Assembly: GCA_021324255.1 (NCBI GenBank)
Contig: JAJPJL010000031.1
Location: 1-64,000 of the forward strand
Reading direction: 5' to 3'
Length of the DNA: 64,000 nt
Source of the DNA: Bacillota bacterium
GTDB taxonomy: Bacteria; Sysuimicrobiota; Sysuimicrobiia; Sysuimicrobiales; Segetimicrobiaceae
The notes beneath the pieces were generated by a model. That model did no database searches and was not told the DNA's origin. It saw nothing but the letters and a program-made list of their open reading frames with translations. Shown here in pieces: positions 6,212 to 46,292 of this stretch. A program made the translations under genes and the position numbers. How positions within the stretch are numbered: the first letter of the stretch is position 1; each line of letters starts with the position of its first letter.

Positions 6212-7453
6212 TTATCGTCGCTTCCCACTTGGGGCACTCGCGTCCGTGCTTTGGGGTCGGGGCTGCCAGTGGGCCGTGAGCTGCTGATAGGCGCGCTCGG
6301 CCTGGATGCCCAGGGCCCGCTCCCGCCGGCGAGTTTCCTTCAGGTTATAGGCGTGAGTCGCACCCCGACGACCGCGGTGGGCTGGCGCACCAGCGCGCAA
6401 CTCCAGTTTCCGTAGCTTATTTGCCGTCAGCGATGGACGAGCGAACGCGTAGTCTTCTTCGCGCGTGAGGAGATGCCAGGCGAGAACCGCCAGCTTTCGT
6501 GCGACAGCGATGACGGCGATGTGCGGCCCGCGCCGGGCGCGAACACGTTGATAGAATGCCCGTAGCGGACCAGGTGTCTTCACTGCCACCCATGCTGCTT
6601 CGGCAAGCGCTCCCCGGGCATGGGCCCGACCTTGCTTAGTGATGGGACCGTACGATGCTGGTTGCGCGCCGGACTGACGCACTCGAGGATCCAGCCCCAA
6701 GTAGCCGACGAGCTTCACCGGAGATGAAAAGCGGTGGACGTCGCCGATTGCGGCCACGAGAGCAAGTGCCACAGTCGCGTCGACGCCAGGGATCGTCAAC
6801 AGATGGCACACGTCCCGTCGTTGCAGCGCCACAGCCGCAAGAGGAGCCTCCGCCACATGCAATTCCTCCGCGATTAACGCCAGCTCACGTAAAGTCGCGT
6901 GTATCGTCTGCTGTTCATGTGAGGGGAGCAAGGGCATGGCCTGCGCGGTTAGCCATTGCAGGCCACCTTTGCCGAACAGATCGCTCCGGGGGCACCCCAA
7001 CACGAGATTCCGCTGCAAGATGGCATGGACACGATTTTTGAGCCGGGTCTGCTGCTGGATCAGCCGTGCACGATGTGCGACCCGTTGCCGGAGCGTCTGC
7101 GTGTCGTTGTCCGGGAGCCAGACCTCGGGCAACCATCCACCCGCTAACAACCGGACCAGCACCTCAGCATCGACCTTGTCGGTTTTGATCTTCGCCTCAG
7201 CGATGGCACGTGTGCGCCGCGGATTGGAGACGACCACCCGTGCGACGTACTGCTCGAGCAGCCGCGCAATGGCATAGGTGTTGCAGGTGGCTTCCAAGGC
7301 GACTTGATCGCTCGGCGTTAAGGTGCGCGCAAAAGCATGCAGCGCTTCCGGAGTCGTCGGAATACGGCCGCGGTGGCTGACCTGTCCATCTTTCCATACA
7401 GCCACCTGAGCGAATTCGCGGTGCACGTCCAATCCGATATGCCGCAAGCGCAT
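6212..7453 (-). CDS. IS110-family transposase (DEDD/RuvC-like plus Transposase_20 domain)
   Basis: The 413-residue recombinase starts MRLRHIGLDVHREFAQVAV, with Asp of the first DEDD position in GLDVH. The second acid lies in LEAT and the last pair in KIKTDKVDAEV, all in the N-terminal DEDD domain. The C-terminal Transposase_20 domain is clear: LLTIPGVDATVAL, then GYLGLDPRVRQSGAQ with the Ser expected to attack DNA in this family. The start at 7453 follows GGGCGGG and is preferred over upstream Mets at 7462 and 7519, but all three are possible. The gene appears intact, so the element could be active. Confidence 0.93.
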   Translation of the reverse strand: MRLRHIGLDVHREFAQVAVWKDGQVSHRGRIPTTPEALHAFARTLTPSDQVALEATCNTYAIARLLEQYVARVVVSNPRRTRAIAEAKIKTDKVDAEVLVRLLAGGWLPEVWLPDNDTQTLRQRVAHRARLIQQQTRLKNRVHAILQRNLVLGCPRSDLFGKGGLQWLTAQAMPLLPSHEQQTIHATLRELALIAEELHVAEAPLAAVALQRRDVCHLLTIPGVDATVALALVAAIGDVHRFSSPVKLVGYLGLDPRVRQSGAQPASYGPITKQGRAHARGALAEAAWVAVKTPGPLRAFYQRVRARRGPHIAVIAVARKLAVLAWHLLTREEDYAFARPSLTANKLRKLELRAGAPAHRGRRGATHAYNLKETRRRERALGIQAERAYQQLTAHWQPRPQSTDASAPSGKRR

Positions 7454-7689
7454 CCCGCCCATCTTGATCGGGAGCCCGGCGGGTAACACGACACCAACGG
7501 ATCCGCGCTCGCAGCGCATCCGGGCCAGTCGCAGGGGCGGCCAACTACTAATACGAGCTCGCAGCTCATGGTACGTGAGCGGCCTGCCCGTCCTGCGTGC
7601 TCCCAGGTGCCCCTCACCCGGATGGTCTCACCATAACAGAGCGGTGGTGCTCCTACCGCTCACGCGTGAAAAGGCACCGCCATTTTCAT
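7454..7689 (-). ncRNA. Candidate bridge-RNA region in the 5' noncoding end of the IS
   Basis: About 236 nt lie between the IS end and the transposase start on the minus strand. Members of the IS110 family encode a structured RNA in a noncoding end that pairs with target and donor DNA. This stretch can fold locally: GAGCGGT and ACCGCTC form a 7-bp stem with a 9-nt loop, GGGTG/CACCT a shorter one, and GAGCT/AGCTC another. The assignment rests on family knowledge plus these stems. In the IS1111 subgroup the RNA is at the other end. Confidence 0.4.
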
Positions 7690-9043: not shown

Positions 9044-9916
9044 TCACCGCAACCGTGGGTCAAGAATATCCCGGAGCGCATCGCCGAGTACGTTAATTGC
9101 GAGAACCACCATGCCGATGGTGGCGCCGGGAAAGGCGGAGATCCACCACTCTGTCCGTAGGTAGTTGCGTCCGTCGCTGACCATCGTGCCCCATTCCGCG
9201 GCGGGCGGTTGCGCACCAAGGCCCAGGAAGCCCAGCGACGAACCGATGACGATCGCAACGGCGAACCCGACCGTTGCGATCACGATGAGGGCCTGAATGA
9301 CGTTCGGGAATACGTAGTCCTTAATGATCCGGTAGTCACGCGTCCCAATCGCACGGGCAGCTTCGATGTAGGATTGTTCTCGGACCACGAGAGTCGAGCC
9401 ACGAACGACCCGCGTATAGGCCGGCGCTTCGCCGATACCCACCGCAATCATGGCATTTGTCAGCCCGGGACCGAGGATTGCAATGACGACAAGCGCGAGC
9501 AGGATCCCGGGAAACGCCATGACGATGTCTACGACCCGCATCGTAACCGCATCGAGCGGGCCTCGATAGTACCCCGCGGCCAGTCCCAGCGGCACGCTGA
9601 TCAAAACCGATAGTGAGACGGACACGAGACCGAGGGTCAGCGAATTGCGGGCGCCATAGATGAGCCGGCTGAGAATGTCTCGGCCGAACTGATCGGTGCC
9701 CAGCCAATGTCGCGCGGACGGTGGTTGAAAGATCTCACTCGGCGCTACGGCGGTAGGGTCGTACGGTGCGAGCCACCTTGGCGCGATCAGCGGGAGCGAG
9801 AGGCAGAACACGATCACCAGGCTCAGCTTCGCCGCCGGGCTCAGGCGTTGCAAGAACGGCACCACGCGCGACCATCGACCGCGCTGCATCTGCGTTCGCG
9901 AGAGCGCAATGGCCAC
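9044..9916 (-). CDS. ABC transporter permease, DppC/OppC type
   Basis: This 290-residue inner-membrane permease belongs to a peptide/nickel/opine-type importer. Hallmarks are the N-terminal HWLGTDQFGRDILSRLIYGA block, the coupling EAA loop (EAARAIGTRDYRIIKDY near residue 195) and the SLGFLGLGAQPPAAEWGTM block near the end. There are about six membrane helices. The likely start is GTG 9916, five bases after the DppB stop. It is the last gene of the seven-gene operon. No DppD/DppF-type ATPase gene is in the window, so the ATPase must come from elsewhere. Confidence 0.92.
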   Translation of the reverse strand: MAIALSRTQMQRGRWSRVVPFLQRLSPAAKLSLVIVFCLSLPLIAPRWLAPYDPTAVAPSEIFQPPSARHWLGTDQFGRDILSRLIYGARNSLTLGLVSVSLSVLISVPLGLAAGYYRGPLDAVTMRVVDIVMAFPGILLALVVIAILGPGLTNAMIAVGIGEAPAYTRVVRGSTLVVREQSYIEAARAIGTRDYRIIKDYVFPNVIQALIVIATVGFAVAIVIGSSLGFLGLGAQPPAAEWGTMVSDGRNYLRTEWWISAFPGATIGMVVLAINVLGDALRDILDPRLR

Positions 9917-9921
9917 CGTGC

Positions 9922-10845
9922 CTACCCGTAACGGACGCGCGGATCGATGAAGCCGTAGAAGAGATCGGCGAGCAGATTGCTGAAGCTGTATGCGAGCGCC
10001 AGGATGAGCACCGCGCCTTGGACTTCGGGAAAGTCCTTCTGCAAGATCGCGAGGACCAGCATACGGCCCACGCCATCCCTCGCGAAGACCGTTTCTACGA
10101 CGACGGCGCCGCCCAAGAGCGTGCCGAACTGCACGCTGGCCACGGTGATGACGGGAATCAGTCCGTTGCGCAAGGCATGCCAGGCGAGGATCCGCCGCTT
10201 CGTGACCCCCTTTGCCCACGCAGTTCGGATGTAGTCTTGGCCGAGGACCTCCAGCATTCCGCTACGCACCAGTCGTGCCAGGATCGCGCCCGCGTACCAG
10301 CCGAGAGTGACCGCGGGCAGAACCAAATGCCGGAGCGAATGCTGACCGGTAATAGGGAACCACTCGAGCCTGACACTGAAGAGCCAGATGAGGAGTAAGC
10401 CGGTCCAGAAGGTCGGGAACGAAATCCCTAACAGGGCGAGGATCGAGACGCCGCTGTCCAGCCACGTATTGCGCGACGAAGCGGAGACGATGCCAAAGAA
10501 GACACCACCCGCCACCGCGAGCGCCATGGCGGCAATGGCGAGTTCCGCTGTGGACGGAATTGCCCGGGCGAGATCGCTCGCCACGGGGCGATCCGTCTTG
10601 AGCGACCGGCCCAGGTCACCCCTTGCGGCACCGTGCAGATACCGAGCCAGCTGGAAGGGGAGCGGTTGATCGAGGCCGAGCGCGTGCCGTACCTCTTCCA
10701 CCTGTGCCTTAGGTACCGGCGCGTCTCCGAACAACACCTGGGCCGGGTCGCCCGGGACGAGATGTACCATGAGGAAGACAATGACCAGGACTCCAAATAC
10801 GACGAGGATCGACTGGAGTACCCGGTGCAGGATGAAGCGAACCAT
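9922..10845 (-). CDS. ABC transporter permease, DppB/OppB type
   Basis: The product has 307 residues and the standard DppB pattern: an N-terminal helix followed by HLVPGDPAQVLFGDAPV, an Ig-like periplasmic part, GISFPTFWTGLLLI, and the EAA-type loop DYIRTAWAKGVTKRRILAWH near residue 205. The family ending GFIDPRVRYG is present. It partners the DppC downstream and receives substrate from the binding protein encoded upstream in the same operon. The start ATG is 3 nt after the isochorismatase-like gene, so the two are probably translationally coupled. Confidence 0.93.
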   Translation of the reverse strand: MVRFILHRVLQSILVVFGVLVIVFLMVHLVPGDPAQVLFGDAPVPKAQVEEVRHALGLDQPLPFQLARYLHGAARGDLGRSLKTDRPVASDLARAIPSTAELAIAAMALAVAGGVFFGIVSASSRNTWLDSGVSILALLGISFPTFWTGLLLIWLFSVRLEWFPITGQHSLRHLVLPAVTLGWYAGAILARLVRSGMLEVLGQDYIRTAWAKGVTKRRILAWHALRNGLIPVITVASVQFGTLLGGAVVVETVFARDGVGRMLVLAILQKDFPEVQGAVLILALAYSFSNLLADLFYGFIDPRVRYG

Positions 10846-10848
10846 CGG

Positions 10849-11595
10849 TCACCGCGTCCCAACGGTGAGCTCGCGGATCGTGTCCTCAGTGCTGGCGACC
10901 CGTCCGAACATTGCCGCAAAAGTTACGAGACTGCTCTCCTGAAGGTAGGGCGTCACGGCCGTACACGCGTCTTCTACGAGAAGCACATGATAGCCGCGAT
11001 CGGCAGCGTCCCGTGCCGTGGTTGCTACGCAGCATTCGGTCGACACTCCCGTTGCGATCACGGTCGTGACGTTCATGTTGCGCAGCATCTGGTCGATCGC
11101 GGTCGAGTTGAACGCTCCCATCGACGTCTTGTTGATGACCGTTTCGCCATCGATGGGCGCGATGGCTTCAACGATCGTACTCGCCCGACTCCCATGTCGA
11201 ACGAGCGGTCCGCGGGCCATCAGCGCCGCCAAATCGTCATCGATCTGGCGAAGCAGGGGGAGCCCGTCGCTCCGGTCTGGTCTCGTGAACCCGATGGTGA
11301 GGTAGACGATCGGCCGCGCGGTACGACGGAACACGGATTGCAGCCGTTGGATGTTGGGTACGACACGGGTGTGCACGCATCCATAGTAATAGTCGGCGAC
11401 CTCGGGCCGGTGCACTCGCAGGTACGGTCCCACGCCGTGGTCCGGATCGACGGAGCCGTACTGCATGTCGATGATGAGCAGGACGGATCGATGAAGGTCC
11501 AGGGAGAACCTCGGGAGCGGCAGCGGCCACTCTCGGAGGCGGGCGCGCCAATCTGCGGCGAGGCCCCTGTGGAGGGTTTCCTCCGTATCCGCCAT
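10849..11595 (-). CDS. Isochorismatase-like cysteine hydrolase
   Basis: This 248-residue cytoplasmic hydrolase has the family triad: Asp43 (LLIIDMQ), Lys156 (NKTSMGAF) and Cys189 (STECCV, preceded by the cis-peptide region GVST). Relatives cleave amides such as N-carbamoylsarcosine, nicotinamide, ureidoacrylate or biuret. The substrate here is not readable from sequence. The ATG at 11595 follows GAGGAT; an ATG at 11619 would overlap the binding-protein gene. Placed between a binding protein and its permeases, it probably hydrolyses an imported amide. Confidence 0.88.
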   Translation of the reverse strand: MADTEETLHRGLAADWRARLREWPLPLPRFSLDLHRSVLLIIDMQYGSVDPDHGVGPYLRVHRPEVADYYYGCVHTRVVPNIQRLQSVFRRTARPIVYLTIGFTRPDRSDGLPLLRQIDDDLAALMARGPLVRHGSRASTIVEAIAPIDGETVINKTSMGAFNSTAIDQMLRNMNVTTVIATGVSTECCVATTARDAADRGYHVLLVEDACTAVTPYLQESSLVTFAAMFGRVASTEDTIRELTVGTR

Positions 11596-11608
11596 CAGCG
11601 GATCCTCG

Positions 11609-13210
11609 CTAACGGGCAAGCGATGCGTCGTACAGCCATGGGAAAAACCCGATATTGTCGAACTCCAAATCGTTCACGTTTGCCGACTTGAGCGAAATGT
11701 TGTCCCAATCGTAGACGGCCACCATGTAGGCTTTCTCCATGACCATGTGCTGCACTGCTGAGAGGATCTGCACGCGCTTGGCGCTGTTGACCTCGACAGC
11801 CTGCTCGTCCAAGAGGCGATCCAAGGCGGGATCCTTCACAAAGGAGAAGTTGAACCCTCCTCCGCCGACATTCCGAGAATGGAGAAAGGCGCTAATGATG
11901 TCGGGATCGCTGCGGGGCGCCGGGAGCGGCGACATCAGGGTGACCGCCTTGCGTTGATTCTCGTTCACCGTCTGAATGGCGGCCCCCGTCGCAATGAAGA
12001 GCTTGACATCAATGCCGATCTGCTTCAGTTGCGCCTGCATGATCTCAGGCACGCCGTGCTCCCAGGAGCCAATAGGAATCGTCAAGCGCCGTCCATCCTT
12101 TTGTCTGATCCCATCCGGTCCGACCTTCCAACCTGCCCTGTCGAGCAATGCGCGCGCCTTGGCCGGATCGTAGTGATACAAGCCCGCCGTCTTATCGTAC
12201 CCGTATGTGTACGGCGTGAGCAGTCCGTACGCCGGCAGGAACGCCCCCACTTTTTCAAACGGCCCGAACACCGTCTTCACGATCGTTGGCCGATCGAGCC
12301 CATAACTCATCGCCTGTCGCACCGCGAGCTCGTTTGTTGGGGGCATGGTGACGTTGACGGCGAAGTCGAACGGCACCCCGGGAACGAAGCCGATGAGCGC
12401 CTTAAACCGCGGGCTCTTGGTGAGCCGATCGAAATCCTGCGCGGGCGCGTTATCAATCACCTGCGCCTCTCCATTCTCCAACGCCGCAACGCGCGTGCCG
12501 TCTTCGGGCAGCATGCGGAACGTTACACGTTCCAAATACGCGGGCCCGCTGTGGTGCAAGATCGGTGCCGGCCACCCGTACGCCGAGTAGCGCTCCAGCG
12601 TAATGTGATCGTTAGGGACCCACTCGACGAATTGGAATGGACCGGTCCCGACGGGGTGTCGCCCGAAATCCTGGTCACCATAGCGCTTCACGGCCGTGGG
12701 CGACACCATGCGGTAGTAGAGGCTCACGGCATCGAGGAAGGGTGCCCACGGCCGTTTGAGGTAAATTTTCACGGTACGAGCATCCACGACGGCGGCATGA
12801 TCGTAAAATCCGACGGCACATCCGCCGCACCGACTTGCCAGCTTTGGATCATGGGTGCGGTCGAAATTGAACTTGACCGCGGCCGCATCAAATGCCGTGC
12901 CATCCTGGAATTTTACGCCCGAGCGCAGCGTGAACGTGTAAACCTTGCCGTCGGGGGAGACGTTCCATGCGGTCGCGAGCCAAGGTTTGAAGCTCTGGTC
13001 TCGTTTGTCTCTGACGATCAACGGGTCGAAGATCTGGAAGAACACGATCTGGGACGGTCGGAGCCCTGACAGGTTCGGATCGAGGCGATCGGGCTCATCG
13101 CGAAGAGCGTAAACTAGAGTGCCTCCCTCATGCGGCGCCGCGGTCGCGGCCGTGAAGGACACCGATAACGCCAGCAACCATACCCCACACAAGACCCACG
13201 CTCTGCTCAT
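11609..13210 (-). CDS. ABC transporter substrate-binding protein (SBP_bac_5), copy 1
   Basis: The product is a 533-residue secreted binding protein. It has a classic signal peptide (MSRAWVLCGVWLLALSVSF… cut after ATAA, about residue 24), then the SBP_bac_5 fold: GGTLVYAL, WLATAWNVSPDGKVYTFTLR, and HPVGTGPFQFVEW. A loop near residue 145 contains CGGC, also present in the paralogue at 16170-17762. The ATG at 13210 follows GGGAGGGAGC. The two proteins are obviously close paralogues, with identical blocks such as AFLHSRNVGGGGFNFSFVKD. The ligand is unknown; nearby enzymes suggest an amide-bearing compound. Confidence 0.92.
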   Translation of the reverse strand: MSRAWVLCGVWLLALSVSFTAATAAPHEGGTLVYALRDEPDRLDPNLSGLRPSQIVFFQIFDPLIVRDKRDQSFKPWLATAWNVSPDGKVYTFTLRSGVKFQDGTAFDAAAVKFNFDRTHDPKLASRCGGCAVGFYDHAAVVDARTVKIYLKRPWAPFLDAVSLYYRMVSPTAVKRYGDQDFGRHPVGTGPFQFVEWVPNDHITLERYSAYGWPAPILHHSGPAYLERVTFRMLPEDGTRVAALENGEAQVIDNAPAQDFDRLTKSPRFKALIGFVPGVPFDFAVNVTMPPTNELAVRQAMSYGLDRPTIVKTVFGPFEKVGAFLPAYGLLTPYTYGYDKTAGLYHYDPAKARALLDRAGWKVGPDGIRQKDGRRLTIPIGSWEHGVPEIMQAQLKQIGIDVKLFIATGAAIQTVNENQRKAVTLMSPLPAPRSDPDIISAFLHSRNVGGGGFNFSFVKDPALDRLLDEQAVEVNSAKRVQILSAVQHMVMEKAYMVAVYDWDNISLKSANVNDLEFDNIGFFPWLYDASLAR

Positions 13211-13289
13211 GGCGCTCCCTCCCTTGCCGGTTGCGAGCGATCTGACCAACGATTCGATCGGGGACCCTGAGCCGCGCGCTTGGTCACCA

Positions 13290-13673
13290 TCACGAGGTTG
13301 GGCAGTTTCGTTCGTCGAGCAGGATCTTGAGGATGCGGAATGCCTCATTGATCGTGGCGAAGCCTGCGTACAGTCCCATTTGTTTCAACATGGCGATTAG
13401 CTTTTGCGGCGTGATCCCGATGTTGAGGGCACCGCGGAGATGCGACTCGAGGCCGGCCGCTCGTCCCAAGACCGCGAGCGCCGCGCACGTCAGAAGACTC
13501 CGTGTTTGGAGATCGAGCGTCGGATCACCGTAGATCTCGCCGTAGCCGTGCTCCAGGATGAAATCGGCAAACGCGGGATCGAGCGCACGAAAGTGAGCAA
13601 TACCGCCCTCTCGGTCGGGCCAGAGTTGCTTGCGGATCGCGAGCCCACGGTCCCGCAGATCAGACTCGGCCAT
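13290..13673 (-). CDS. Carboxymuconolactone decarboxylase-family protein
   Basis: The 127-residue helical protein matches the gamma-carboxymuconolactone decarboxylase group: LDLQTRSLLTCAALAVLGR, then ESHLRGALNIGITPQKL and a final helix. It lacks the CxxC of the AhpD branch, so a decarboxylase/lactone role is more likely than peroxidase. The start is well supported by GGAGGTGA just upstream. It lies 24 nt after the RraA-like gene in the operon and may act on a ring-cleavage or lactone intermediate. Confidence 0.85.
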   Translation of the reverse strand: MAESDLRDRGLAIRKQLWPDREGGIAHFRALDPAFADFILEHGYGEIYGDPTLDLQTRSLLTCAALAVLGRAAGLESHLRGALNIGITPQKLIAMLKQMGLYAGFATINEAFRILKILLDERNCPTS

Positions 13674-13697
13674 CGTTCACCTCCAACCCGTCACCGG

Positions 13698-14438
13698 TCA
13701 ACGCCGGGCGGTCCCTTCGCCATCGACGGCGAATCCTTGCTTCCCCAGCGAATCGACAATGGCGTCGATCCCGGTAACCTCACCGCGCTCCAGGATCGCT
13801 TGAAGCTTCGCGTGTCGCTGTTTCAGCTCGGTCACCTGGCGCAGCACCCAGGCTGCCGCTGCCGGCGGGATGGCCACGATCCCGTTCGCGTCGGCCACGA
13901 TGATGTCGCCTGGATTCACCACGACGCCGCCGCAGGCGACGGGGACATTGACCTCGCCCGGGCCGTCGAGCGGCGGCGTCGCCGTGGCTTGGGCGCGGGC
14001 AAACACGGGGAACCCCACGTTCTCGGCCTCCTCTGGATCGCGCGCGGCTCCGTCGATCACGGCCGCAGCCACGCCGCGCCGCTGCATGCCCTTGCTCACG
14101 TTACCGCCCCAGACCGCGAATGCGCAGATCCCCCAGGCATTGATCACCATGACATCGCCGGGGTGGGTTTGCTGCATGCCAAATTTGATGATGTTAAAGG
14201 CGCCGCGGGGTACTGCCACGGTTACGGCCGGACCCGCGACGCGTTGCCGTAGGGGATAGAGCGGCCGAATGCGGGGATCGATCGTGTGCGCCGCGTTCAT
14301 GGCATCTGAGAGGTCCGGTGGTGCGTATTCCGCGAGTTGATCAATGAGGTTGCGAGGAGGGCGACGAACCGTCCGGATGCCTCGAAACCCAAGTTGTCCT
14401 ACGGCGGGTGTCTGACCGGGAACGTCCATGGGTGTCAT
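13698..14438 (-). CDS. RraA-like / HMG (4-carboxy-4-hydroxy-2-oxoadipate) aldolase-type protein
   Basis: The product has 246 residues of the RraA/MenG-like fold: DLSDAMN, GDVMVINAWG, GMQRRGVAAAVIDGAARD (the Arg-Asp pair used for metal and substrate in the aldolases), VVVNPGDIIVADANGIVAI. Catabolic members cleave a 4-hydroxy-2-oxo acid to pyruvate plus another acid. Operon context favours this over RNase E inhibition. Its ATG overlaps the creatininase TGA (ATGA at 14435-14438), so translation is coupled. Confidence 0.85.
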   Translation of the reverse strand: MTPMDVPGQTPAVGQLGFRGIRTVRRPPRNLIDQLAEYAPPDLSDAMNAAHTIDPRIRPLYPLRQRVAGPAVTVAVPRGAFNIIKFGMQQTHPGDVMVINAWGICAFAVWGGNVSKGMQRRGVAAAVIDGAARDPEEAENVGFPVFARAQATATPPLDGPGEVNVPVACGGVVVNPGDIIVADANGIVAIPPAAAAWVLRQVTELKQRHAKLQAILERGEVTGIDAIVDSLGKQGFAVDGEGTARR

Positions 14439-15244
14439 CCCCCTTTACCTGGAGCGGCCGCGTCGGGTTCCATCCAAGGATCGACGGTGTGAAACCAACG
14501 CATGAATTCCGTGCAAAACCCCACGGCGTAGTTGAGCAACGCTTCGCCGCGCTGCGCGCTTGCCGGCGACGGGTCGCTGAGACTCCCGGTCTCGGGGGTG
14601 ATGTCGCGCATGTCCAGGGGGAGAGCCACACGGGCGTTGCGGAACAAGATGGCGCCGAGACCATCCGTGGGCATCCCGAACATCTGCTTTCGCCCGAAGG
14701 CCCCGGCCTGATCGAGGTGGACCAATTCCGGCCGCAGCGCCATCATGAGCGACCCCACGGGTTCGCCCCCGTGCCCGAGTTGAACGGTGTCTCCATACAC
14801 CTGCTTGATGAGTGTGGGATTTTGGATCACCTGCAGTGGCGACACGATTGGGATGAGTAGCCCGATGTGGCGCCGCACGCGGCGCGCCAGGAGTTCCAAG
14901 ATCGGGGCGTTGCCTGCATGACCGTTGAAGATGACGATGCGGCGCACTCCGTGGCGCAGGAGGCAGTTGATGGTATCGTTGACCACCGCACGCAGGGTTT
15001 GAGGATGCACCGTGATCGTGCCGGGATACTGGCGGAAGTATTCGGAGTAGCCAAATGGCAGCGTGGGGACCATCAGGTCGCCCGTGGCGTCCGCGGTGCG
15101 CCGCGCTATCGCATCGATGATCATGTAGTCCCCCATCGGCGCGTGGGGGCCGTGCTCTTCGATCGATCCTAGAGGCACAATCGCGGTTCCGCGTTCTGCG
15201 ATTGCGGTTCGGGCTACCGTCCAACTGACCTCGCCAAGATGCAC
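14435..15244 (-). CDS. Creatininase-family amidohydrolase, copy 1
   Basis: The 269-residue metalloenzyme shows the creatininase metal blocks: PLGSIEEHGPHAPMGDYM near residues 25-42 (Glu, His, Asp ligands), FNGHAGN near 108, and QLGHGGEPVGSLMM near 155. Family members open cyclic or linear amides (creatinine, mycofactocin precursors, riboflavin intermediates). The start is taken as GTG 15244 because AGAGGTGAT lies 8 nt upstream; the open frame upstream to 15310 runs through the promoter. It is the first gene of the operon transcribed away from the GntR regulator. Confidence 0.88.
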   Translation of the reverse strand: MHLGEVSWTVARTAIAERGTAIVPLGSIEEHGPHAPMGDYMIIDAIARRTADATGDLMVPTLPFGYSEYFRQYPGTITVHPQTLRAVVNDTINCLLRHGVRRIVIFNGHAGNAPILELLARRVRRHIGLLIPIVSPLQVIQNPTLIKQVYGDTVQLGHGGEPVGSLMMALRPELVHLDQAGAFGRKQMFGMPTDGLGAILFRNARVALPLDMRDITPETGSLSDPSPASAQRGEALLNYAVGFCTEFMRWFHTVDPWMEPDAAAPGKGG

Positions 15245-15281
15245 GAGCCGATCACCTCTCTGCGCTTGCGACCATATTTGG

Positions 15282-15310
15282 AGTATGATATTAGAAATAT
15301 AAGATATCAA
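15282..15310 (-). promoter_or_regulatory. Promoter with overlapping AT-rich palindrome (probable GntR operator)
   Basis: On the minus strand TTGATA (15310-15305) and CATACT (15287-15282) are spaced 17 nt and would drive the creatininase operon with a ~30-nt leader. The same segment forms an inverted repeat, TGATAT 15286-15291 and ATATCA 15304-15309. It stands out as AT-rich in GC-rich DNA. Position between the operon and the divergent GntR gene makes it the obvious operator. A plus-strand TTGACA at 15318-15323 may belong to the regulator's own promoter, but its -10 is poor. Confidence 0.55.
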
Positions 15311-15422
15311 ATGTGAGTTGACAAGGCGGGGCGAGTCCCTTCAAGCGGTACTGCGGTGCTAAGGTTTGCTATCGGAGGGGCGAACCAGACCCTATGGCCA
15401 TGCAGCATGGAGGCCGGAATCC

Positions 15423-16136
15423 GTGAAACGAACGACGCTTGAGCCGGTCTCGTCGCGGCGCCTCGGCGATCAAGTATACGCGCGCCTTATTGAGGCCATC
15501 GCCACGAATCAGCTCCCGGAAGGAACGCGAATCCAGGAGGACAAGCTTGTAGCCCAACTCGGCGTCAGCAAGACTCCCATACGCGAGGCGCTGAGACGCT
15601 TGCAGGCAGAGGGATTCATCGTCGCGGATGCTCATCGTACGCCGGAAGTCCGGCGGCTGCAGCGGGCTGACGTCATCGAGCTCTATGATCTGCGCGAGTA
15701 TTTGGAACGGCTGGCGGCTCGGCGCGCTGCGGAGCGGCATAGCGACGCCGTGCTGGCCGCGGTGGGCGATCTCCAAAGGCGGACCGAGGAGCGGTTCGCC
15801 ACGCACGGTATCCCGATCGAAGAGTCCGTCGAGTACAACCGGCAATTTCACCGGCTCGTGCTGGAAGCCGCCGGCAACACGCGCCTGCGGAACATGTACG
15901 AGCTGATGAGTGTTGATGTCCGGAGACTGGCGTATCGGAGCATCCGAGGAGAAGGCCGACAGCGGGTGGCGCTTGAGCAACACCGCGGGATTCTCGACGC
16001 GATCGTGGCCGGCAATGCGGCGACAGCGGAGGACCTCATCACGCAGCACATCCGGCGAGGCCGCGCGGATGTCCTCGCCCAATTCGGGGAGAATGCCGAG
16101 AGTGCAAGTGAACAGCGAAGCATGTCGAGGCAGTGA
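15423..16136 (+). CDS. GntR-family regulator (FadR/FCD type)
   Basis: The 237-residue regulator has an N-terminal winged helix (LGDQVYARLIEAIATNQLPE…, KLVAQLGVSKTPIREALRRL, about residues 12-70) and a C-terminal FCD domain. The FCD metal/ligand His residues appear in EYNRQFHRLV, EQHRGILDAI and ITQHIRRG. FCD-type GntR proteins usually repress uptake and catabolic genes until a carboxylate ligand binds. The start is GTG 15423 with GGAGG 10 nt upstream. Being central and divergent, it probably controls both flanking transporter operons. Confidence 0.9.
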   Translation: MKRTTLEPVSSRRLGDQVYARLIEAIATNQLPEGTRIQEDKLVAQLGVSKTPIREALRRLQAEGFIVADAHRTPEVRRLQRADVIELYDLREYLERLAARRAAERHSDAVLAAVGDLQRRTEERFATHGIPIEESVEYNRQFHRLVLEAAGNTRLRNMYELMSVDVRRLAYRSIRGEGRQRVALEQHRGILDAIVAGNAATAEDLITQHIRRGRADVLAQFGENAESASEQRSMSRQ

Positions 16137-16169
16137 TCGGAGACCGGTACGAAGACAAGGGGGACGCTG

Positions 16170-17762
16170 ATGAGGCGAATGTTGCTCGGCCTCGCGCTGG
16201 TCGCGGTCGCAGCCCTTCCGCAGGCCGGATTCACCGCGGCGGCACCGCACCGCGGCGGCACACTCGTCTACTCGCTGGACGGGAGTCCGGACAAGCTCGA
16301 CCCCAATTTGTCGGGCTTGCGGCCTGCGCAGATCGTTTTCTTCCAAATCTTCGATCCGCTCGTGGTGCGTGATCCGAAAGATAACACGATCAAGGCGTGG
16401 CTCGCGACCTCCTGGTCCGTGTCCCCCGACGGCAAAGTGTATACGTTTCATTTGCGCTCCGGTGTGAAATTTCACGATGGGTCGCCGCTGGACGCCGCTG
16501 CCGTGAAGTTCAACTTCGACCGGACGCACAACCCCGCACTCGGCACGCGATGCGGCGGATGTGCAATGGGGTTCTACGATGCGGCGGACGTCGTCAACGC
16601 GTCAACCGTGGCCATTCATCTGAAGGCTCCGTGGGCCCCGTTTCTCGATGCCGCGAGCCTCTTTTATCGGATGGTATCCCCCGCGGGTGTCCGTAAGGTG
16701 GGAGACCAGGATTTTGGGCAGCATCCCGTTGGCTCGGGGCCATTCCGCTTTGTGCAATGGATACCGAACGACCGGGTCATCCTGGAGCGCAATCCCGACT
16801 ACGGGTGGCCCTCACCGCTCTTCAAGCACCAGGGCCCCGCCTATTTGGATCGCGTCATCTTCCGGATCATCCCCGAACCATCGACGCGGGTCAATGCGCT
16901 GGAGACCGGGGAAGTCCAGGTTACGACGGCGGTAGCTCCGCAGGATTTTCAACGACTCGCGCACGATGCGCGGTTCAAGCCCATCGTCGGCCTGTCGCCG
17001 GGCTCACCGTACTCCTGGGCGATCAACGTAACGAAGCCGCCGACGAACGACCTCGCCGTCCGCCAAGCGATGGAATATGGCATCAACCGGGATCTCATTG
17101 CGCGCGTCGTCTATGGCCCGTTTCAGCCGTACGGCGCGTACCGGCCGGCGTACACCTTGCTGAGTCCGGTGACCTGGGGGTACGACAAGGCTTCAGGAAT
17201 CTATCACTATGACCCCGTCAAGGCCCGGGCGCTCCTCGACGCCGCGGGCTGGAAGCCCGGGCCGGACGGCATCCGGCGCAAGGACGGGCAACCCCTCGTG
17301 ATCGTGTTCAACGCCTGGGAGCATGGGATTCCCGAGCTCGTCCAAGCGGAGTTGCGGAGTGTTGGGATCGACGTCAAGGTGGGGATTTATGACGCGCTCA
17401 CGGTGAACGAAGACCAGCGCAAGGGTGAGTCAAATCTGTCGCCGCTTCCCGGCGCACGGACTGACCCGGATGTTCTTTCGGCGTTTCTCCACTCGCGGAA
17501 TGTTGGCGGCGGCGGGTTCAACTTTTCCTTCGTCAAAGATCCGGAGCTCGACAAGCTCTTTGACGCCGGCGCGACCGAGGTGAACCTCGAGAGGCGTAAG
17601 CAGATCTACGCTGACGCGCAGCGGTACGCGATGGAGAAAGCGTACATGCTGCCGATCACGACGCGGGACAACGTTTCGCTCGAGTCGGCCAAGGTGCAGG
17701 ATCTCCGGTTCGACGCCACCGGGTTCTTCCCGTGGTTGTACGATACGTCGCTCGCGCCTTAG
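16170..17762 (+). CDS. ABC transporter substrate-binding protein (SBP_bac_5), copy 2
   Basis: The product is a 530-residue binding protein with a signal peptide (MRRMLLGLALVAVAALPQAG, cleaved near FTAAA). It is strongly similar to copy 1: KLDPNLSGLRPAQIVFFQIF, WLATSWSVSPDGKVYTFHLR, RCGGCAMGFYD, HPVGSGPFRFVQW. The CGGC loop is kept. The start ATG follows AAGGGGGACGCTG. It is read together with two permeases and a GGT-like gene. The pair probably arose by duplication of one transporter, with divergence in ligand preference. Confidence 0.92.
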   Translation: MRRMLLGLALVAVAALPQAGFTAAAPHRGGTLVYSLDGSPDKLDPNLSGLRPAQIVFFQIFDPLVVRDPKDNTIKAWLATSWSVSPDGKVYTFHLRSGVKFHDGSPLDAAAVKFNFDRTHNPALGTRCGGCAMGFYDAADVVNASTVAIHLKAPWAPFLDAASLFYRMVSPAGVRKVGDQDFGQHPVGSGPFRFVQWIPNDRVILERNPDYGWPSPLFKHQGPAYLDRVIFRIIPEPSTRVNALETGEVQVTTAVAPQDFQRLAHDARFKPIVGLSPGSPYSWAINVTKPPTNDLAVRQAMEYGINRDLIARVVYGPFQPYGAYRPAYTLLSPVTWGYDKASGIYHYDPVKARALLDAAGWKPGPDGIRRKDGQPLVIVFNAWEHGIPELVQAELRSVGIDVKVGIYDALTVNEDQRKGESNLSPLPGARTDPDVLSAFLHSRNVGGGGFNFSFVKDPELDKLFDAGATEVNLERRKQIYADAQRYAMEKAYMLPITTRDNVSLESAKVQDLRFDATGFFPWLYDTSLAP

Positions 17763-17797
17763 GGATCGGCTGGCGGTAAGGGAGCGGCTGGCCGATC

Positions 17798-18721
17798 GTG
17801 GCATCGTTTATCGTCTACCGGCTGGGGCACAGCGCCGGCGTGATCCTCGGTGTGCTCGTGCTGGTGTCACTGATGATCCACCTGGTGCCGGGAGATCCGG
17901 CCCAGCTCATGGTCGGCGACGCCCCGGTATCGGCCGCGCAGTTGCAGGCGATTCGTCATAGTCTAGGGCTCGATCGTCCGCTCCCCGTGCAGTTAGGGAG
18001 CGATGCCGTGCGGTTCGTCCGCGGCAACTTGGGCCGGTCGTTACGGTCGGGCCGGCCGGTCATCGACTATCTCCGCCGGGCGTTGCCATCGACCATCTCT
18101 CTAGCGCTCGCCGCGATGCTCTTTGGGGTGCTGGTCGGCGTGCCGGCCGGGGTCATCGCCGCCGTCTATCGCGGCAGATGGGCGGACGCGCTCGCGACCG
18201 CGTTCGCCGTGGTCGGCATCTCGCTGCCGTCTTTCTGGACGGGCATTCTGTTCATTGTCCTCTTTGCGGTCGAACTTGGGTGGTTTCCGGCCACCGGACA
18301 GGGGAGCGGACGCGCGCTCGTGCTGCCGGCGCTCACGCTCGGCTGGTACCCTGCCGGAGCGATCGGCCGTCTATTGCGCAGCGCCATGCTCGAGGTCTTG
18401 CACAAGGAGTACGTGGGGGTGGCGCGGGCGAAGGGCCTGCGGGAAGGCGTGGTCGTGATGCGCCATGCACTGCGCAACGCCCTGCTGCCGGCCGTGACGC
18501 TCGCGACGGTGCAGTTTGGCGCGCTGTTGAGCGGTGCAATCATCACCGAGACGGTCTTCGCACGCGAAGGATTGGGGCGGCTCATTGTCGATGGGATCTT
18601 GCAACGCGACTTTCCGATTGTGCAGGGTGTCGTCCTGGTGATCGCCGTCATTTACACGCTCGTGAACCTGTCTACGGATCTACTCTGCGCATGGCTGGAT
18701 CCACGCATCCACTACGGTTGA
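17798..18721 (+). CDS. ABC transporter permease, DppB/OppB type
   Basis: This 307-residue permease with GTG start carries HLVPGDPAQLMVGDAPV, GISLPSFWTGILFIVLF, the EAA loop EYVGVARAKGLREGVVVMRH near residue 207, and ends LDPRIHYG. It partners the next gene, whose ATG overlaps its stop (TGATG, 18719-18723). It is paralogous to the DppB at 9922-10845, with matching order in the opposite orientation. No ATPase gene is linked. Confidence 0.93.
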   Translation: MASFIVYRLGHSAGVILGVLVLVSLMIHLVPGDPAQLMVGDAPVSAAQLQAIRHSLGLDRPLPVQLGSDAVRFVRGNLGRSLRSGRPVIDYLRRALPSTISLALAAMLFGVLVGVPAGVIAAVYRGRWADALATAFAVVGISLPSFWTGILFIVLFAVELGWFPATGQGSGRALVLPALTLGWYPAGAIGRLLRSAMLEVLHKEYVGVARAKGLREGVVVMRHALRNALLPAVTLATVQFGALLSGAIITETVFAREGLGRLIVDGILQRDFPIVQGVVLVIAVIYTLVNLSTDLLCAWLDPRIHYG

Positions 18722-19620
18722 TGAGCATGCGCCCAACCATCGCGATCGCGGGGCGTCCGGCACGCAGGGAACGGCGGGCGCGCGGTGGATGGGTGCGACG
18801 CACGTATCGACGGGCGAGCACGGCAAGTATCGCCGCCGCGGGCTTCCTCGTCGTCATCATCGCGATGGCTGTTGCACCAGACGTATTCACTAGATCCGAC
18901 CCGAACCAGATGGACCCGGTGGCCGTGTTGGGAGCCCCCAGCACGGCACACCCGTTTGGAACCGACGAGTTCGGCCGGGACATCCTGACGCGGGTGGTGT
19001 TTGGAGCACGCACCTCGCTCGGCTACGCTCTCTTGGCGACGGCGATTAGCGTTGGCCTGGGCACGAGTGCGGGCGTCACGGCCGGTTTTTACGGCGGCCG
19101 GTTCGACAACGCCCTCATGCGAGGCGTGGACATCCTCTTGGCGTTCCCGGGCATTCTCTTGGCGCTCATCGTCGTGACGCTGCTCGGACCTGGGCTGACA
19201 AACGCGATGATCGCGGTGCGCATCGGTCAGGCGCCCGCCTTCAGCCGGGTGGTGCGGGGTGCGACGCTTGGGGTGAAGAACAGCCAATATGTCGAGGCCG
19301 CGCGAGGAGTGGGCGCGTCGGCAGCCCGCGTGATCTGGCGGCATATCCTGCCTAACGTTCGCCATGTTGTGTTCGTCCTGGGGTCCCTCGGCTACGGCGC
19401 AGCCATCCTGATCGGCGCCTCGCTGAGCTTTCTGGGGCTGGGAGCGCAGCCTCCGGCCCCGGAGTGGGGCAGCATGCTGGAAACGGCGCGAGGATACCTG
19501 CAGAGCAGTTGGTGGATTGGGGTCTTGCCTGGAGCCGTGCTTGGCGCGACCTTGCTCAGCATCAACGTCGTCGGAGATCTGCTGCGGGATGTTCTTGACC
19601 CCAGCCTCAGACTCGAATAG
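18721..19620 (+). CDS. ABC transporter permease, DppC/OppC type
   Basis: The product has 299 residues. A basic, Arg-rich N-terminal extension precedes the first helix (STASIAAAGFLVVIIAMAVA). The family blocks are HPFGTDEFGRDILTRVVFGA, an EAA loop (EAARGVGASAARVIWRHILP), and SLSFLGLGAQPPAPEWGSM. Its start codon overlaps the DppB stop, so the two are co-translated. It completes the right-hand permease pair of the mirror-image cluster. Confidence 0.93.
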   Translation: MSMRPTIAIAGRPARRERRARGGWVRRTYRRASTASIAAAGFLVVIIAMAVAPDVFTRSDPNQMDPVAVLGAPSTAHPFGTDEFGRDILTRVVFGARTSLGYALLATAISVGLGTSAGVTAGFYGGRFDNALMRGVDILLAFPGILLALIVVTLLGPGLTNAMIAVRIGQAPAFSRVVRGATLGVKNSQYVEAARGVGASAARVIWRHILPNVRHVVFVLGSLGYGAAILIGASLSFLGLGAQPPAPEWGSMLETARGYLQSSWWIGVLPGAVLGATLLSINVVGDLLRDVLDPSLRLE

Positions 19621-19629
19621 GGGTGAGAC

Positions 19630-21258
19630 ATGAGAGCAGGCGCCATCGCGTGTCCTGAGCCGCTCGCGGCGGAGGCGGGCGAGCGGATCTTTGGCCGCGG
19701 CGGGACGGCGATCGAGGCCGCCGTCGCCGCGGCGATGGTTCAGGGCGTGACGAACCCGCTGGGTTGCGGCCTGGCCGGAATGGCGCACGTGATGCTGGTA
19801 CGGCAGGAATGGCCGGCTCCCCGCTTTTTCAATGCATCGGTCGCAGTTGGCTCACGTGCCGACCCCGGTATTTTCGAGGAGAGCTTCCTCGGTCGCAGTG
19901 AACGTGCCGGGCGGTACCTCGTGGAGGGCGATCGCAACCAGCTGGGGTACGCGTCCATCATGACGCCGGGGTTCGTGCGCGGGATGGAGGCTGTGCTGCG
20001 TCAGGGCGATGGTCGACTCGGGTGGTCGGAGCTCGTGGATTCCGCGGCGGGAATCGCCACGGAAGGCTTTCCTGTCTACCCGTACCTGGAGACCTACTAT
20101 ACGTTCGAAGGCCCCGACCGGCCCGGGTATCCGGACGTGTTCCGCAAGTTGAGCGGAGATGCAGCCGCGCGCGGGCGATATCTTCCGGGTGGGCGCGTCC
20201 CCCGTGTAGGAGAGCGCCTGCGGCAACCCGAGTACGGCCGGACGCTGGAGCGGATCGCGCGGGGCGGACCGGACGAATTGTACCGCGGCGAGGTGGCGCG
20301 CACCATGACCGCGGACTTCGAGGCGCACGGTGCGTTCGTCACCCTGGGCGATCTCGCAGCCTATGAGGTGCAGCCGATCGAACCGATCCGTGGCAGTTTT
20401 CGTGATCTTACGCTGTACTCGAGTCCGCCGCCAGGCCACGGCGTTGTGCTCCTGACGATGCTCAACGTGATCGAGCGAGTCGACCTGGCAGGCGTGACAT
20501 GGAATGGGCCGGACTATCTCGAAGCCGTGGCGTGGGCGACGCGGACGGCGTTCGGCGACTGCATGCCGTACCTCTCGGATCCCACGTTCGTGACCGTGCC
20601 GGTGCAGTGGCTGACGTCGAAACGGCGGGCCAGCGCTGCTCGCCAAGAGTTCGCCCTCGAAACGGGCCACGGCGGCGGTGCGCCGGCGGATGGGCACACC
20701 ACGCATGTCTCGGCCTGCGACACCACCGGTAATGTCGTGAGCATTACGCACTCCATCGGGTCCGTTGCCGGCGCGGGTGTGATGACCTCCGAACTGGGAT
20801 TCCTCTACAACAATTTCATGGGACACTTCAACCCGCTTCGCGGTTACCATAATTCGATCGCGCCCGGGAAGCGCATGGGGGGCGGCAGCCCGACGATTGT
20901 CTATCGGGGCAACACCCCGTGGATTGCGATCGGGTCCTCGGGCGGGAGCCGGCTCATCAGCGCCGTCTTTCAGACGTTGCTCAACGTCATCGTCTTCGAC
21001 ATGTCGCTGCAGGACGCCGTGGCGGCGCCTCGGATTCACAGCGAGTCTGGGCGCAAGATCTATGTAGAGCCGGCGCTCTCGGGGGCCGTCGCCGACGCCC
21101 TTCGACGCCGTGGGTACGAGATCGAGGTGACGCGTTACATGGGTTGCAACCAGGCGGTGGCGCTGACGCCCACGGGGCCGGCGGCGGCGTCGGATCCGCG
21201 AGGCGGGCAGGGGATCGGCTTGTGGCCGCGGGACCGGGGGGGCCGAGGAGAGGCATGA
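19630..21258 (+). CDS. Gamma-glutamyltransferase-family Ntn hydrolase
   Basis: The 542-residue proenzyme of the GGT family has the autoprocessing site at Thr357 (GHTTHVS), which becomes the N-terminal nucleophile of the small subunit. The conserved GGGSPTIV and GSSGGSR blocks follow near residues 417 and 437. There is no signal peptide, unlike typical secreted GGTs, so it should act in the cytoplasm on imported substrate, either as a gamma-glutamyl hydrolase or as an acylase. It starts 9 nt after the permease stop in the same operon, and its stop overlaps the next small reading frame (ATGA). Confidence 0.87.
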   Translation: MRAGAIACPEPLAAEAGERIFGRGGTAIEAAVAAAMVQGVTNPLGCGLAGMAHVMLVRQEWPAPRFFNASVAVGSRADPGIFEESFLGRSERAGRYLVEGDRNQLGYASIMTPGFVRGMEAVLRQGDGRLGWSELVDSAAGIATEGFPVYPYLETYYTFEGPDRPGYPDVFRKLSGDAAARGRYLPGGRVPRVGERLRQPEYGRTLERIARGGPDELYRGEVARTMTADFEAHGAFVTLGDLAAYEVQPIEPIRGSFRDLTLYSSPPPGHGVVLLTMLNVIERVDLAGVTWNGPDYLEAVAWATRTAFGDCMPYLSDPTFVTVPVQWLTSKRRASAARQEFALETGHGGGAPADGHTTHVSACDTTGNVVSITHSIGSVAGAGVMTSELGFLYNNFMGHFNPLRGYHNSIAPGKRMGGGSPTIVYRGNTPWIAIGSSGGSRLISAVFQTLLNVIVFDMSLQDAVAAPRIHSESGRKIYVEPALSGAVADALRRRGYEIEVTRYMGCNQAVALTPTGPAAASDPRGGQGIGLWPRDRGGRGEA

Positions 21259-21350
21259 TGGGCACGGATCGGCTGCGAGAACGGTTGGGCGAGGGCCAGG
21301 TTGCGTACGGCGTCATCATAGGGTGGGATGAGGGCGCCGGCCGCTCGTAG
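21255..21350 (+). pseudogene. Truncated start of a HpcH/HpaI-type aldolase
   Basis: The frame starts at ATG 21255, overlapping the GGT stop, and encodes 31 residues beginning MMGTDRLRERLGEGQVAYGV. The RLRERL..G..AYGV pattern is the opening of HpcH/HpaI (4-hydroxy-2-oxoheptanedioate) aldolases, and then the frame ends with no barrel. Probably a former operon member cut off by deletion. It could instead be a short coupled peptide; the match is short. Confidence 0.4.
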
Positions 21351-21584
21351 GCGCGGGGAACGCTGCGGGAGCGGGACGGTATCGTATTCGATCATGAGGT
21401 ACGTGTGAGGACATACACAGGGGGGAGCGGCCAATTGATAGGTGCTCGTGTCGGCACGTCCGTGTGATGCTCGCCGTCCAAGCGGAGCTCTTGGGGATTG
21501 GTGCATAAAACGGAGGCGTCCAGCACAGCCGCTGAGAATCGGAGGCTGGTCGTGCTCAGAGGGCAGACTGTCGGAGGCGATCCC

Positions 21585-23201
21585 ATGAGTCAGTGGCCCC
21601 GAACGTTGATCCGGAGTGGACTGACGGCGGTTCTCATAGGGTTCCTGTCCCTTGGTTTTTGGGCTCCGGCGTGGAGCCAGCAGCCCAAGACGCTCGTGAT
21701 CGCGATTGACGCTGACCCCGCCGGGCTGGATCCGCAGCAGGGGCAGAGTGCCGACACCGATTATGTCGTCTCCACCATCTTCGATGGAATCGTCGACTCC
21801 CGGCCCGGATCGAGCCTTGTCGGCCCCGGGCTTGCCCAGAAGTGGACGATCTCTCCAGACGGCAAGACCTATACGTTCGCCTTGCGACGCAGCGTCACGT
21901 TTCACGATGGCACTCCCATGAATGCGCGCACGGTGGCGGAGGACCTCGACCGTGCCATCAACCCGAACAACCCGTGTTACGTGCTCGGACGCAAGGGCGT
22001 CAGCACGTATGACGACTTCACGTTCGGCTCCACAAAGGCGGGCAACGTTGTCGCGATGAAGGTTGTGGACGATTACACGCTGCAGTTCACGTTACCGCAA
22101 CCCAACGCGCCCTTTCTCACCAACCTGGCCATGGTGCAAACGGGCATCATGAGCCCAACGGCGACCAAACAGTACAACTGCGATGCCGGCGGGCATCCAT
22201 CCGGCACGGGCCCGTTCAAGTTCGTGGAACACGTGGCGGACGATCACGTAACGCTCGAGGCGAATGCCGGGTACTGGCGAGGCCGGCCCAAAGTCGATCG
22301 CATCATCTTTCAGATCGTCCCGGAGAGTACGACGCGGTTGCTCAAGCTCCGTCAGAACGAGGTGCAGATCCTGAGTGATGTGCCCTCTAGCGATTACGAT
22401 CAGATCACCGGCAACCCGGACCTGCGTCTCTATAAGCAGCCCGGGCTCACGATCTTGGGGGTCGTCATGGCCAACGATGTTGCGCCCTTCAATGACAAGC
22501 GCGTGCGCCAAGCCCTCAACTACGCGGTGGACAAAGACGCCATCAATAAAGGACTGTACGGTGGTGCGACGACGGCCAGTCAAGGCATGCCCCCGGTCTT
22601 GTGGGGATACGACAAGGCGGTTCAGCCCTATCCGTACGATCCTCAAAAGGCGAAGGCGCTCCTCAAGGGGGCCGGATTCCGGAACGGGTTTTCCACGGAC
22701 ATGATGGTGTATTCCATCCCTCGCTCCTACAATCCGATCGGGGGCGCCAAGCTCGGCGAGGCCGTGCAATCGTATCTCACGAAGGTTGGCGTCAACGTAA
22801 AAGTCACGCAGTACGAATGGGGAGCATATCTGAACAAACTGCGATTCAGCCCGTGGACGGGACTGGGCATCTGGGGCTGGATCGGAGATAGCGGGGACCC
22901 CGACAACTTTCTGGGCGCGATGTTCGCGTGGGATCCGAGCACGAACAAGCCGGTCACCAACAACGTCGCCCACTACGATAACCCTCAAGTCAACACGCTG
23001 ATCCAGCAGGGACGCACCAGTACCGACCAGGCCAAACGCGCCCAAGCCTACATCCAAGCCAATCGGCTCATTCATGACGATGCGCCATGGCTGTTCATCA
23101 ACCATATGAACCAAGCGCGTGCGGCGAGAGCCAGCGTGAAGGGTCTCCTCTTGAACCCAGTCCAGATGTACTTCTACATGGAGCGTGTATCGCTCCAATA
23201 A
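21585..23201 (+). CDS. ABC transporter substrate-binding protein (SBP_bac_5), copy 3
   Basis: The 538-residue secreted binding protein has the signal sequence LIRSGLTAVLIGFLSLGFWA with cleavage near AWSQQ. SBP_bac_5 blocks are present (WTISPDGKTYTFALR, SGTGPFKFVEHV). It is clearly more distant from copies 1 and 2: no CGGC, different C-terminus. The ATG at 21585 follows GGAGG; the frame upstream to 21498 is unlikely protein. No permease genes are adjacent, so it may share the permeases of the neighbouring cluster or others elsewhere. Confidence 0.92.
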   Translation: MSQWPRTLIRSGLTAVLIGFLSLGFWAPAWSQQPKTLVIAIDADPAGLDPQQGQSADTDYVVSTIFDGIVDSRPGSSLVGPGLAQKWTISPDGKTYTFALRRSVTFHDGTPMNARTVAEDLDRAINPNNPCYVLGRKGVSTYDDFTFGSTKAGNVVAMKVVDDYTLQFTLPQPNAPFLTNLAMVQTGIMSPTATKQYNCDAGGHPSGTGPFKFVEHVADDHVTLEANAGYWRGRPKVDRIIFQIVPESTTRLLKLRQNEVQILSDVPSSDYDQITGNPDLRLYKQPGLTILGVVMANDVAPFNDKRVRQALNYAVDKDAINKGLYGGATTASQGMPPVLWGYDKAVQPYPYDPQKAKALLKGAGFRNGFSTDMMVYSIPRSYNPIGGAKLGEAVQSYLTKVGVNVKVTQYEWGAYLNKLRFSPWTGLGIWGWIGDSGDPDNFLGAMFAWDPSTNKPVTNNVAHYDNPQVNTLIQQGRTSTDQAKRAQAYIQANRLIHDDAPWLFINHMNQARAARASVKGLLLNPVQMYFYMERVSLQ

Positions 23202-23240
23202 CCGTTCGCACAGCACACGCCGTTGTCTGAGGAGGGAGCG

Positions 23241-24215
23241 ATGCCGACCGTGCGCATCGGGCCAGTCTCGGCCGGTCCGGGCGAAAAGGCATTTGGGTAC
23301 GTCGAGATGTTCGAATTGCCCGTGTCGGTGATGAGATTGCCCGTTTGGATCATCAATAGTGGAACGCCTGGGCCGCGCGTGGCGATGACGGCGGGGATGC
23401 ACGGAACCGAGTACGTGGGAATCGAAGCCGCCACCAGAATCGCCCGGGAGACGCAGCCGGCAGACATCCGCGGCACGCTCGTCGTGTTCCCTGTGGTGAA
23501 CGTGCTGGGATTTGAGGCAGCCGACGTCCTCGCCGTCCCGATCGACGGGCAAAACATCAATCGCGTCTTCCCCGGCGACGCACATGGTTCGCCCAGCTTT
23601 GTGCTGGCGCACTTTCTCTTCGACTCGATCCGTCGAGGGGCGGACGCCGTGATTGACCTTCACGGAGGGGATGCTGCCCAGGCGCTTCACCCGTTCAGTG
23701 TTTGCTATGAAACTGGCGACGCGAACGTCGATCGGCGCTCCATGGACATGGCGGAACTCTTCGACATGCCGTTCATATGGGCGATGGGGCCGCAACGCGG
23801 GCACAGCGGCATGATGATCAGCGAGTTGAGCAAGTGCGGAATCCCCGCGGCGATCGGCGAGGCGGGCGACCTCGGTACATGCCGGGAGGAAGACGTCCGG
23901 CTTCACCTACGAGGAATCACAAACATTTTGAGGTACCTGGGCGCCATCGAAGGCGTTCCCGAGCGGACGCTACCGGTGGCGCCCGAGGTGTTCCGGAGCG
24001 ATTTTCGCGTGGTTGCGCGTCGCGGAGGCGTGTTCAGTGCGCTCGTGCCTATCGGCACGCGTGTGCGGGCCGGCGATCTGCTGGGCGTCATCAAGAACAT
24101 TGCCGGGGATACCGTCGAGGAGGTCACCTCGCCTCATCCGGGCGTGATAACCTCGTTTCAGTCGGCCCGAGTGGTGCATCCCGGGAGCCGTTTATATCAC
24201 GGTCTCATGCCGTAG
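23241..24215 (+). CDS. Succinylglutamate desuccinylase/aspartoacylase-family (M14-like) deacylase
   Basis: The 324-residue zinc enzyme has GMHGTEYVGIEA (first His and Glu ligands, about residues 53-58) and VIDLHGGD (third ligand, near 137). The NINRVFPG block is typical of AspA/AstE relatives, and GEAGDLGTC near 215 lies near the catalytic Glu region. The C-terminal half looks like a lipoyl-type beta domain. Such enzymes remove acyl groups from amino acids or amines. A strong GAGGAGGGAGCG precedes the ATG. It lies 39 nt after the binding protein, so it may deacylate that protein's ligand. Confidence 0.85.
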   Translation: MPTVRIGPVSAGPGEKAFGYVEMFELPVSVMRLPVWIINSGTPGPRVAMTAGMHGTEYVGIEAATRIARETQPADIRGTLVVFPVVNVLGFEAADVLAVPIDGQNINRVFPGDAHGSPSFVLAHFLFDSIRRGADAVIDLHGGDAAQALHPFSVCYETGDANVDRRSMDMAELFDMPFIWAMGPQRGHSGMMISELSKCGIPAAIGEAGDLGTCREEDVRLHLRGITNILRYLGAIEGVPERTLPVAPEVFRSDFRVVARRGGVFSALVPIGTRVRAGDLLGVIKNIAGDTVEEVTSPHPGVITSFQSARVVHPGSRLYHGLMP

Positions 24216-46274: not shown

Positions 46275-46292
46275 GTCCGGGGCGCGGGTCCG

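Follow-up and report, generated by a model that had tools for sequence, protein, structure and literature searches.

The closest described counterparts of the locus reported here are the ABC importers of the Dpp/Opp/Gsi type, whose binding proteins (SBPs) are of the SBP_bac_5 family. In one of these binding proteins, DppA, residues R355 and D408 presumably anchor the dipeptide. Enzymes comparable to those encoded beside the importers occur in the GGT family, which includes the oxamate amidohydrolase HpxW, and among biuret hydrolase, N-carbamoylsarcosine amidase and RutB. In the MsiK-type arrangement, sugar importers without an ATPase of their own are served by a shared one. The host of the locus belongs to Ca. 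Sysuimicrobiota, an abundant uncultured soil phylum. A paper on this phylum (PMC11604079, 2024) cites earlier reports that its members express genes for peptide and amino acid assimilation; the words 'ABC transporter' are absent from its text, and a literature search found no published description of the cluster analysed below.

The window, the 64-kb stretch of DNA that was analysed, is contig C72 of a 3.7-Mb genome (G000; 142 contigs, approximately 95% complete). Named relatives of the same family are G004 (Bacillota MAG Centralia_MAG_233) and G007 and G008 ('Terrabacteria group bacterium ANGP1' MAGs); ANGP1 is placed by NCBI in Ca. Segetimicrobiaceae, Ca. Sysuimicrobiota. A first-pass annotation had described two importers facing away from one GntR regulator, each with its own hydrolases, and every gene that it named was recovered at its coordinates and on its strand (Table 1). 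An RraA-like aldolase and a CMD-family ORF had been overlooked on the left. Pfam matches group SBP_bac_5, DppB and DppC genes in each arm, and the regulator carries both a GntR HTH and an FCD domain. The CMD-family ORF is without a counterpart in the G007 cluster, with no G007 homology across 13290-13673. Rfam and tRNA scans gave no match.

Table 1. Features of the twin-importer cluster, in window coordinates
Feature	Position	Strand	Basis and remarks
Left DppC-type permease	9044..9889	-	PF00528; left-clade DppC in tree; start uncertain
Left DppB-type permease	9922..10845	-	PF00528 + PF19300; tree
Isochorismatase-like cysteine hydrolase (Iso)	10849 to about 11595-11619	-	PF00857; start inferred
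Left SBP (SBP_bac_5)	11609..13210	-	PF00496; tree; N-terminus resembles signal sequence
CMD-family ORF, 127 aa	~13290..13673	-	PF02627; translation
RraA-like / class II aldolase family protein	13698..14438	-	PF03737
Creatininase-family amidohydrolase (Crn)	14435..~15242	-	PF02633; start inferred from G004
Divergent control region, predicted	15243..15420	.	22-bp AT-rich block at ~15284-15305
GntR/FCD regulator	15421..16136	+	PF00392 + PF07729; GTG start inferred
Right SBP (SBP_bac_5)	16170..17762	+	PF00496; tree; N-terminus resembles signal sequence
Right DppB-type permease	17798..18721	+	Domain match; tree
Right DppC-type permease	~18718-18721..19620	+	Domain match; tree
GGT-family Ntn-hydrolase	19630..21258	+	PF01019; no signal sequence seen

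Several other genes of the window were observed around the cluster. An IS110-family transposase gene (6212-7519, -) adjoins the left arm in a lower-GC stretch, and a further DppB/DppC pair lies at 45405-46886 (-). Downstream of the cluster, 21498-25290 (+) encodes a third SBP (SBP3), an AstE/AspA-family deacylase (DoeB-like, below the cut-off) and a second creatininase-family protein; neither the G004 cluster nor that of G007 was found to have this set next to it.

The relationship of the two arms was analysed with homologues from family-wide searches and a phylum-wide search (43 genomes). In the IQ-TREE phylogenies the left (L) and right (R) proteins form sister clades, with support of 100/100 for the SBP, 100/99 for DppB and 99/98 for DppC; the trees sample the best hits within the phylum, and a closer outsider to L or R is still conceivable. 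Placement of the arms in unrelated transporter clades, the outcome that would have spoken against the first-pass annotation, was thus seen in none of the three trees. Its description of the arms as closely paralogous holds for the SBPs, which are 64% identical where the next best match in the genome reaches 42%, and is weaker for the permeases (DppB 54%, DppC approximately 50%). Judged on percent identity, a protein on contig G000:C45 (54%) is a closer match for the left DppC than is its counterpart in the right arm (50%); the tree nonetheless pairs the two arms. Two nearby importers are in themselves unsurprising because the genome has 67 DppB-type permeases; chance would not be expected to make neighbouring importers each other's closest relatives in every one of the three trees. 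The phylogenies give good support to a single duplication of the SBP-DppB-DppC cassette. Since the L and R clades each span several genera, this duplication would predate the genera or have spread among them. A contig scan with the right SBP returned only three close records, from genomes also present in the family search, and one distant match, and relatives on plasmids were all below 60% identity (best 40% among the matches listed).

The same layout was looked for in other genomes. An identical mirror order was found in the closest relative, G004, of the same genus (g1), where a single blastn alignment covers 9053-21331 of the window (approximately 12.3 kb) at 78% DNA identity; the G004 flanks are unrelated, with no window ORF matching at E 1e-30 other than importer genes. 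In G007 (genus g4) the genes form a one-strand run, Crn-RraA-SBP_L-Iso-B_L-C_L-SBP_R-B_R-C_R-GGT, with GntR divergent upstream, and the partial contig of G008, also of g4, has the same tandem junction. Inverting the segment of GntR plus left arm converts one order into the other, so that a single inversion suffices and the mirror shape need not stem from an inverted duplication. Of the inverted duplication proposed earlier, the duplication is borne out by the sister arms, while the tandem g4 layout makes the inverted origin no more than a possibility. In G001 and G002 (g2) the right arm and GGT are kept, RraA is divergent and no GntR is adjacent; G001 is without the left arm, and G002 has an additional left-type cluster approximately 21 kb along the same contig. 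No cluster member was detected in G003, G005, G009, G010 or G011 at the thresholds used.

The earlier view that each arm carries its own, different enzymes proved misleading. In G024, which represents a different family of the same order, a GntR gene and a single left-type importer precede GGT, Crn and RraA genes, and close relatives of all four enzymes of the window accompany this one importer (GGT 58%, Crn 69%, RraA 68% and Iso 74% identity). The left-type locus of G002 likewise encodes, next to its L-type SBP, GGT (53%) and Iso (67%), together with more distant RraA-like (39%) and Crn-like (35%) proteins. Because of these single-importer loci, the enzymes of both arms look like one set partitioned over the arms, as judged from gene neighbourhoods, and not like two pathways. 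Quick trees of the enzymes were small and partly unsupported.

In the mirror and tandem layouts alike, all cluster genes adjoin one GntR control region. Within the ~180 bp of this region, the 22-bp AT-rich block is identical in the window and G004; its strong conservation is confined to these two close relatives, and similarity to G007 and G024 falls within the shuffle range. A perfect palindrome, TGATAT-N12-ATATCA, overlaps the block in the window, and 18 of 100 shuffles gave at least one match at two or fewer mismatches. Promoter and terminator scans were overall at chance level. The right arm is probably co-transcribed with GntR, because the gap between GntR and the right SBP gene is only 33 bp, and one GntR switch over both arms is plausible.

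The 64-kb window and the scanned cluster loci of relatives yielded no ABC ATPase, whether DppD/DppF or other. The genome has 67 BPD_transp_1_N (DppB-type) hits versus nine oligo_HPY hits, and the other family members (11 relatives examined besides G000) have 23 to 90 versus 5 to 22, counts from which ATPases lacking the oligo_HPY domain and of low similarity may have escaped. A DppD-type query of the genome gave nine Opp-like matches, some of them weak. This excess of permeases over ATPases suggests that ATPases are shared.

The residues expected for ligand recognition are altered in both the binding proteins and the enzymes. The positions of the DppA anchors are not kept in any L or R SBP and are both kept in SBP3 (21498), the DppA reference being the 8z1z chain, which is apparently mutated at both positions. 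Common to the L and R SBPs are a WEHG motif, read as WERG in the sequence from G023, and an [ST]P-x-P...R-[ST]-DP motif, a signature absent from the other SBPs in the comparison. An AlphaFold prediction for the right SBP (12 cluster members) was poor, with a pLDDT of 54, and pocket residues were for this reason placed by sequence only. In the GGT-like protein the small subunit still begins with the catalytic Thr (TTH motif; HTTH). The D433 position of GGT is His in all cluster members, and at the R114 position the G024 protein and that of the second G002 locus have no nearby Arg, while the alignment of the window protein is ambiguous there. In the creatininase-like protein NGHAGN stands where creatininase has NGHYEN, and the metal ligand E122 is not kept. 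The isochorismatase-like protein has a conserved catalytic-Cys region, and its top-ranking sequence matches in the PDB comprise a cysteine hydrolase, an amidase and biuret hydrolases; it scores 91.5 bits against the BiuH model NF050097 (cut-off 370) and also misses the RutB cut-off. The RraA-like protein, which falls below every NCBIfam equivalog cut-off, carries G-x20-R-D-x2-E, the aldolase motif described in the literature.

These changes bear on two specific readings of the locus. Uptake of glutathione or gamma-glutamyl peptides by a Gsi-type importer, followed by GGT cleavage, would fit the GsiC/GsiD-like permease scores and the presence of a GGT-family enzyme. All of these scores lie below equivalog cut-offs, including that of the GGT-like protein against TIGR00066 (288 bits, cut-off 357.85), and the gamma-glutamate contact residues of GGT are lost, which makes this reading improbable. 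A creatinine degradation cluster of creatininase and N-carbamoylsarcosine amidase is suggested by the adjacent creatininase-family and isochorismatase-family genes, and it is more improbable still: the creatininase-like protein reaches 103 bits against TIGR04448 (cut-off 235), E122 is lost, no creatinase-family gene is among the cluster genes identified, and the genome has 13 creatininase-family genes, several of them close to other Dpp-type importers. Taken together, the lost DppA anchors, the changed GGT contacts, NGHAGN and the sub-cut-off enzymes argue against ordinary dipeptides, gamma-glutamyl peptides and creatinine as substrates and favour a different amide-type compound. Both SBPs likely bind related amide-type organic nitrogen compounds other than ordinary free dipeptides, although ligands might still differ between the arms in spite of the common signature.

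Two further readings concern the history of the locus. An inverted duplication around GntR could have produced the mirror as the original layout, with the tandem g4 order arising through a later inversion. The arms are sisters in all trees, and the RraA gene divergent from the lone right arm in G001 and G002, together with the mirror in g1, mildly favours the mirror as the older order, a mirror ancestor needing fewer changes. Set against this are the tandem order in g4, the lone left-type importers with GGT in G024 and G002, by which the duplicates may have arisen or been acquired elsewhere and joined later, and the absence of an inverted-repeat scar, the arms having no genes in common outside the transporter genes; an inverted origin is a possibility that we hold only tentatively. 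Alternatively, two independent importers with different ligands may have been joined by horizontal transfer, the position of GntR alone suggesting one system. In neither G001 nor G002 does the right arm have GntR beside it, and in G001 the left arm is missing as well; the right arm can therefore work alone. Moreover, the distribution of the cluster across family and order is patchy, its GC content is approximately 62-64% against 69-70% in the flanks (G000 and G004), and G024, of another family, nests among members of family f1 within the left clade. These observations make horizontal transfer of the cluster likely. Independence of the two importers is nevertheless doubtful, given that the SBP signature is common to both arms, that the same two arms stand together in two genera and two layouts, and that enzymes of both arms accompany a single importer in G024.

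We consider it probable that the locus is a GntR/FCD-controlled uptake-and-hydrolysis cluster of Segetimicrobiaceae in which one cassette was duplicated once, the sister importers being served by a shared enzyme set and the layouts lying one inversion apart. The best reading of its putative role is the scavenging of an amide-type organic nitrogen compound. On this account, duplication of the SBP-DppB-DppC cassette would predate either the divergence of the genera or the spread of the cluster, the sister importers would have remained together with their common enzymes, and the mirror and tandem orders would be rearrangements of the same gene unit. Related amide-type nitrogen compounds would be captured by both SBPs and imported through permeases whose ATPases are encoded at other loci of the genome. 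Amide bonds would be cleaved in the cytoplasm by the GGT-like, creatininase-like and isochorismatase-like enzymes, and the RraA-like enzyme would split or decarboxylate the keto acid so formed. A carboxylate intermediate may then bind the FCD domain and lift the repression of both arms.

The twin-importer cluster is real and conserved, and it is ordinary in kind; inverted duplication is one of two candidate histories for it. It illustrates that an importer cassette can duplicate while the enzyme set stays common, and that genes can change their order yet stay at one control region. For the Sysuimicrobiota, it points to a candidate nutrient class and to an unusual surplus of peptide-type permeases over ATPases. 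A more specific proposal, advanced here with caution, is that the sister importers, with the four hydrolases/aldolase linked to them, constitute a transferable unit that scavenges an undescribed class of amide-type nitrogen compound from soil; a few shared ATPases would then power its permeases, as they would most of the family's several dozen Dpp-type importers that have no ATPase.

Compared with Dpp/Opp/Gsi-type importers, the cluster has SBP_bac_5 proteins and DppB/DppC-type permeases by Pfam, but it is without ATPase genes and DppA anchors and stays below every NCBIfam equivalog cut-off. Its GGT-like protein resembles the GGT family, including HpxW, as an Ntn-hydrolase with the catalytic Thr motif, but differs in the missing gamma-glutamate recognition residues and in having no visible signal sequence. 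The likeness of the isochorismatase-like protein to biuret hydrolase, N-carbamoylsarcosine amidase and RutB lies in its catalytic-Cys region and best PDB matches, whereas its scores are far below the equivalog cut-offs. As in the MsiK-type arrangement, the importer cassettes have no ATPases and the genome has few of the type that would match them; here, however, the permeases are of the peptide/nickel type, approximately 67 of them to about nine ATPases that would be shared.
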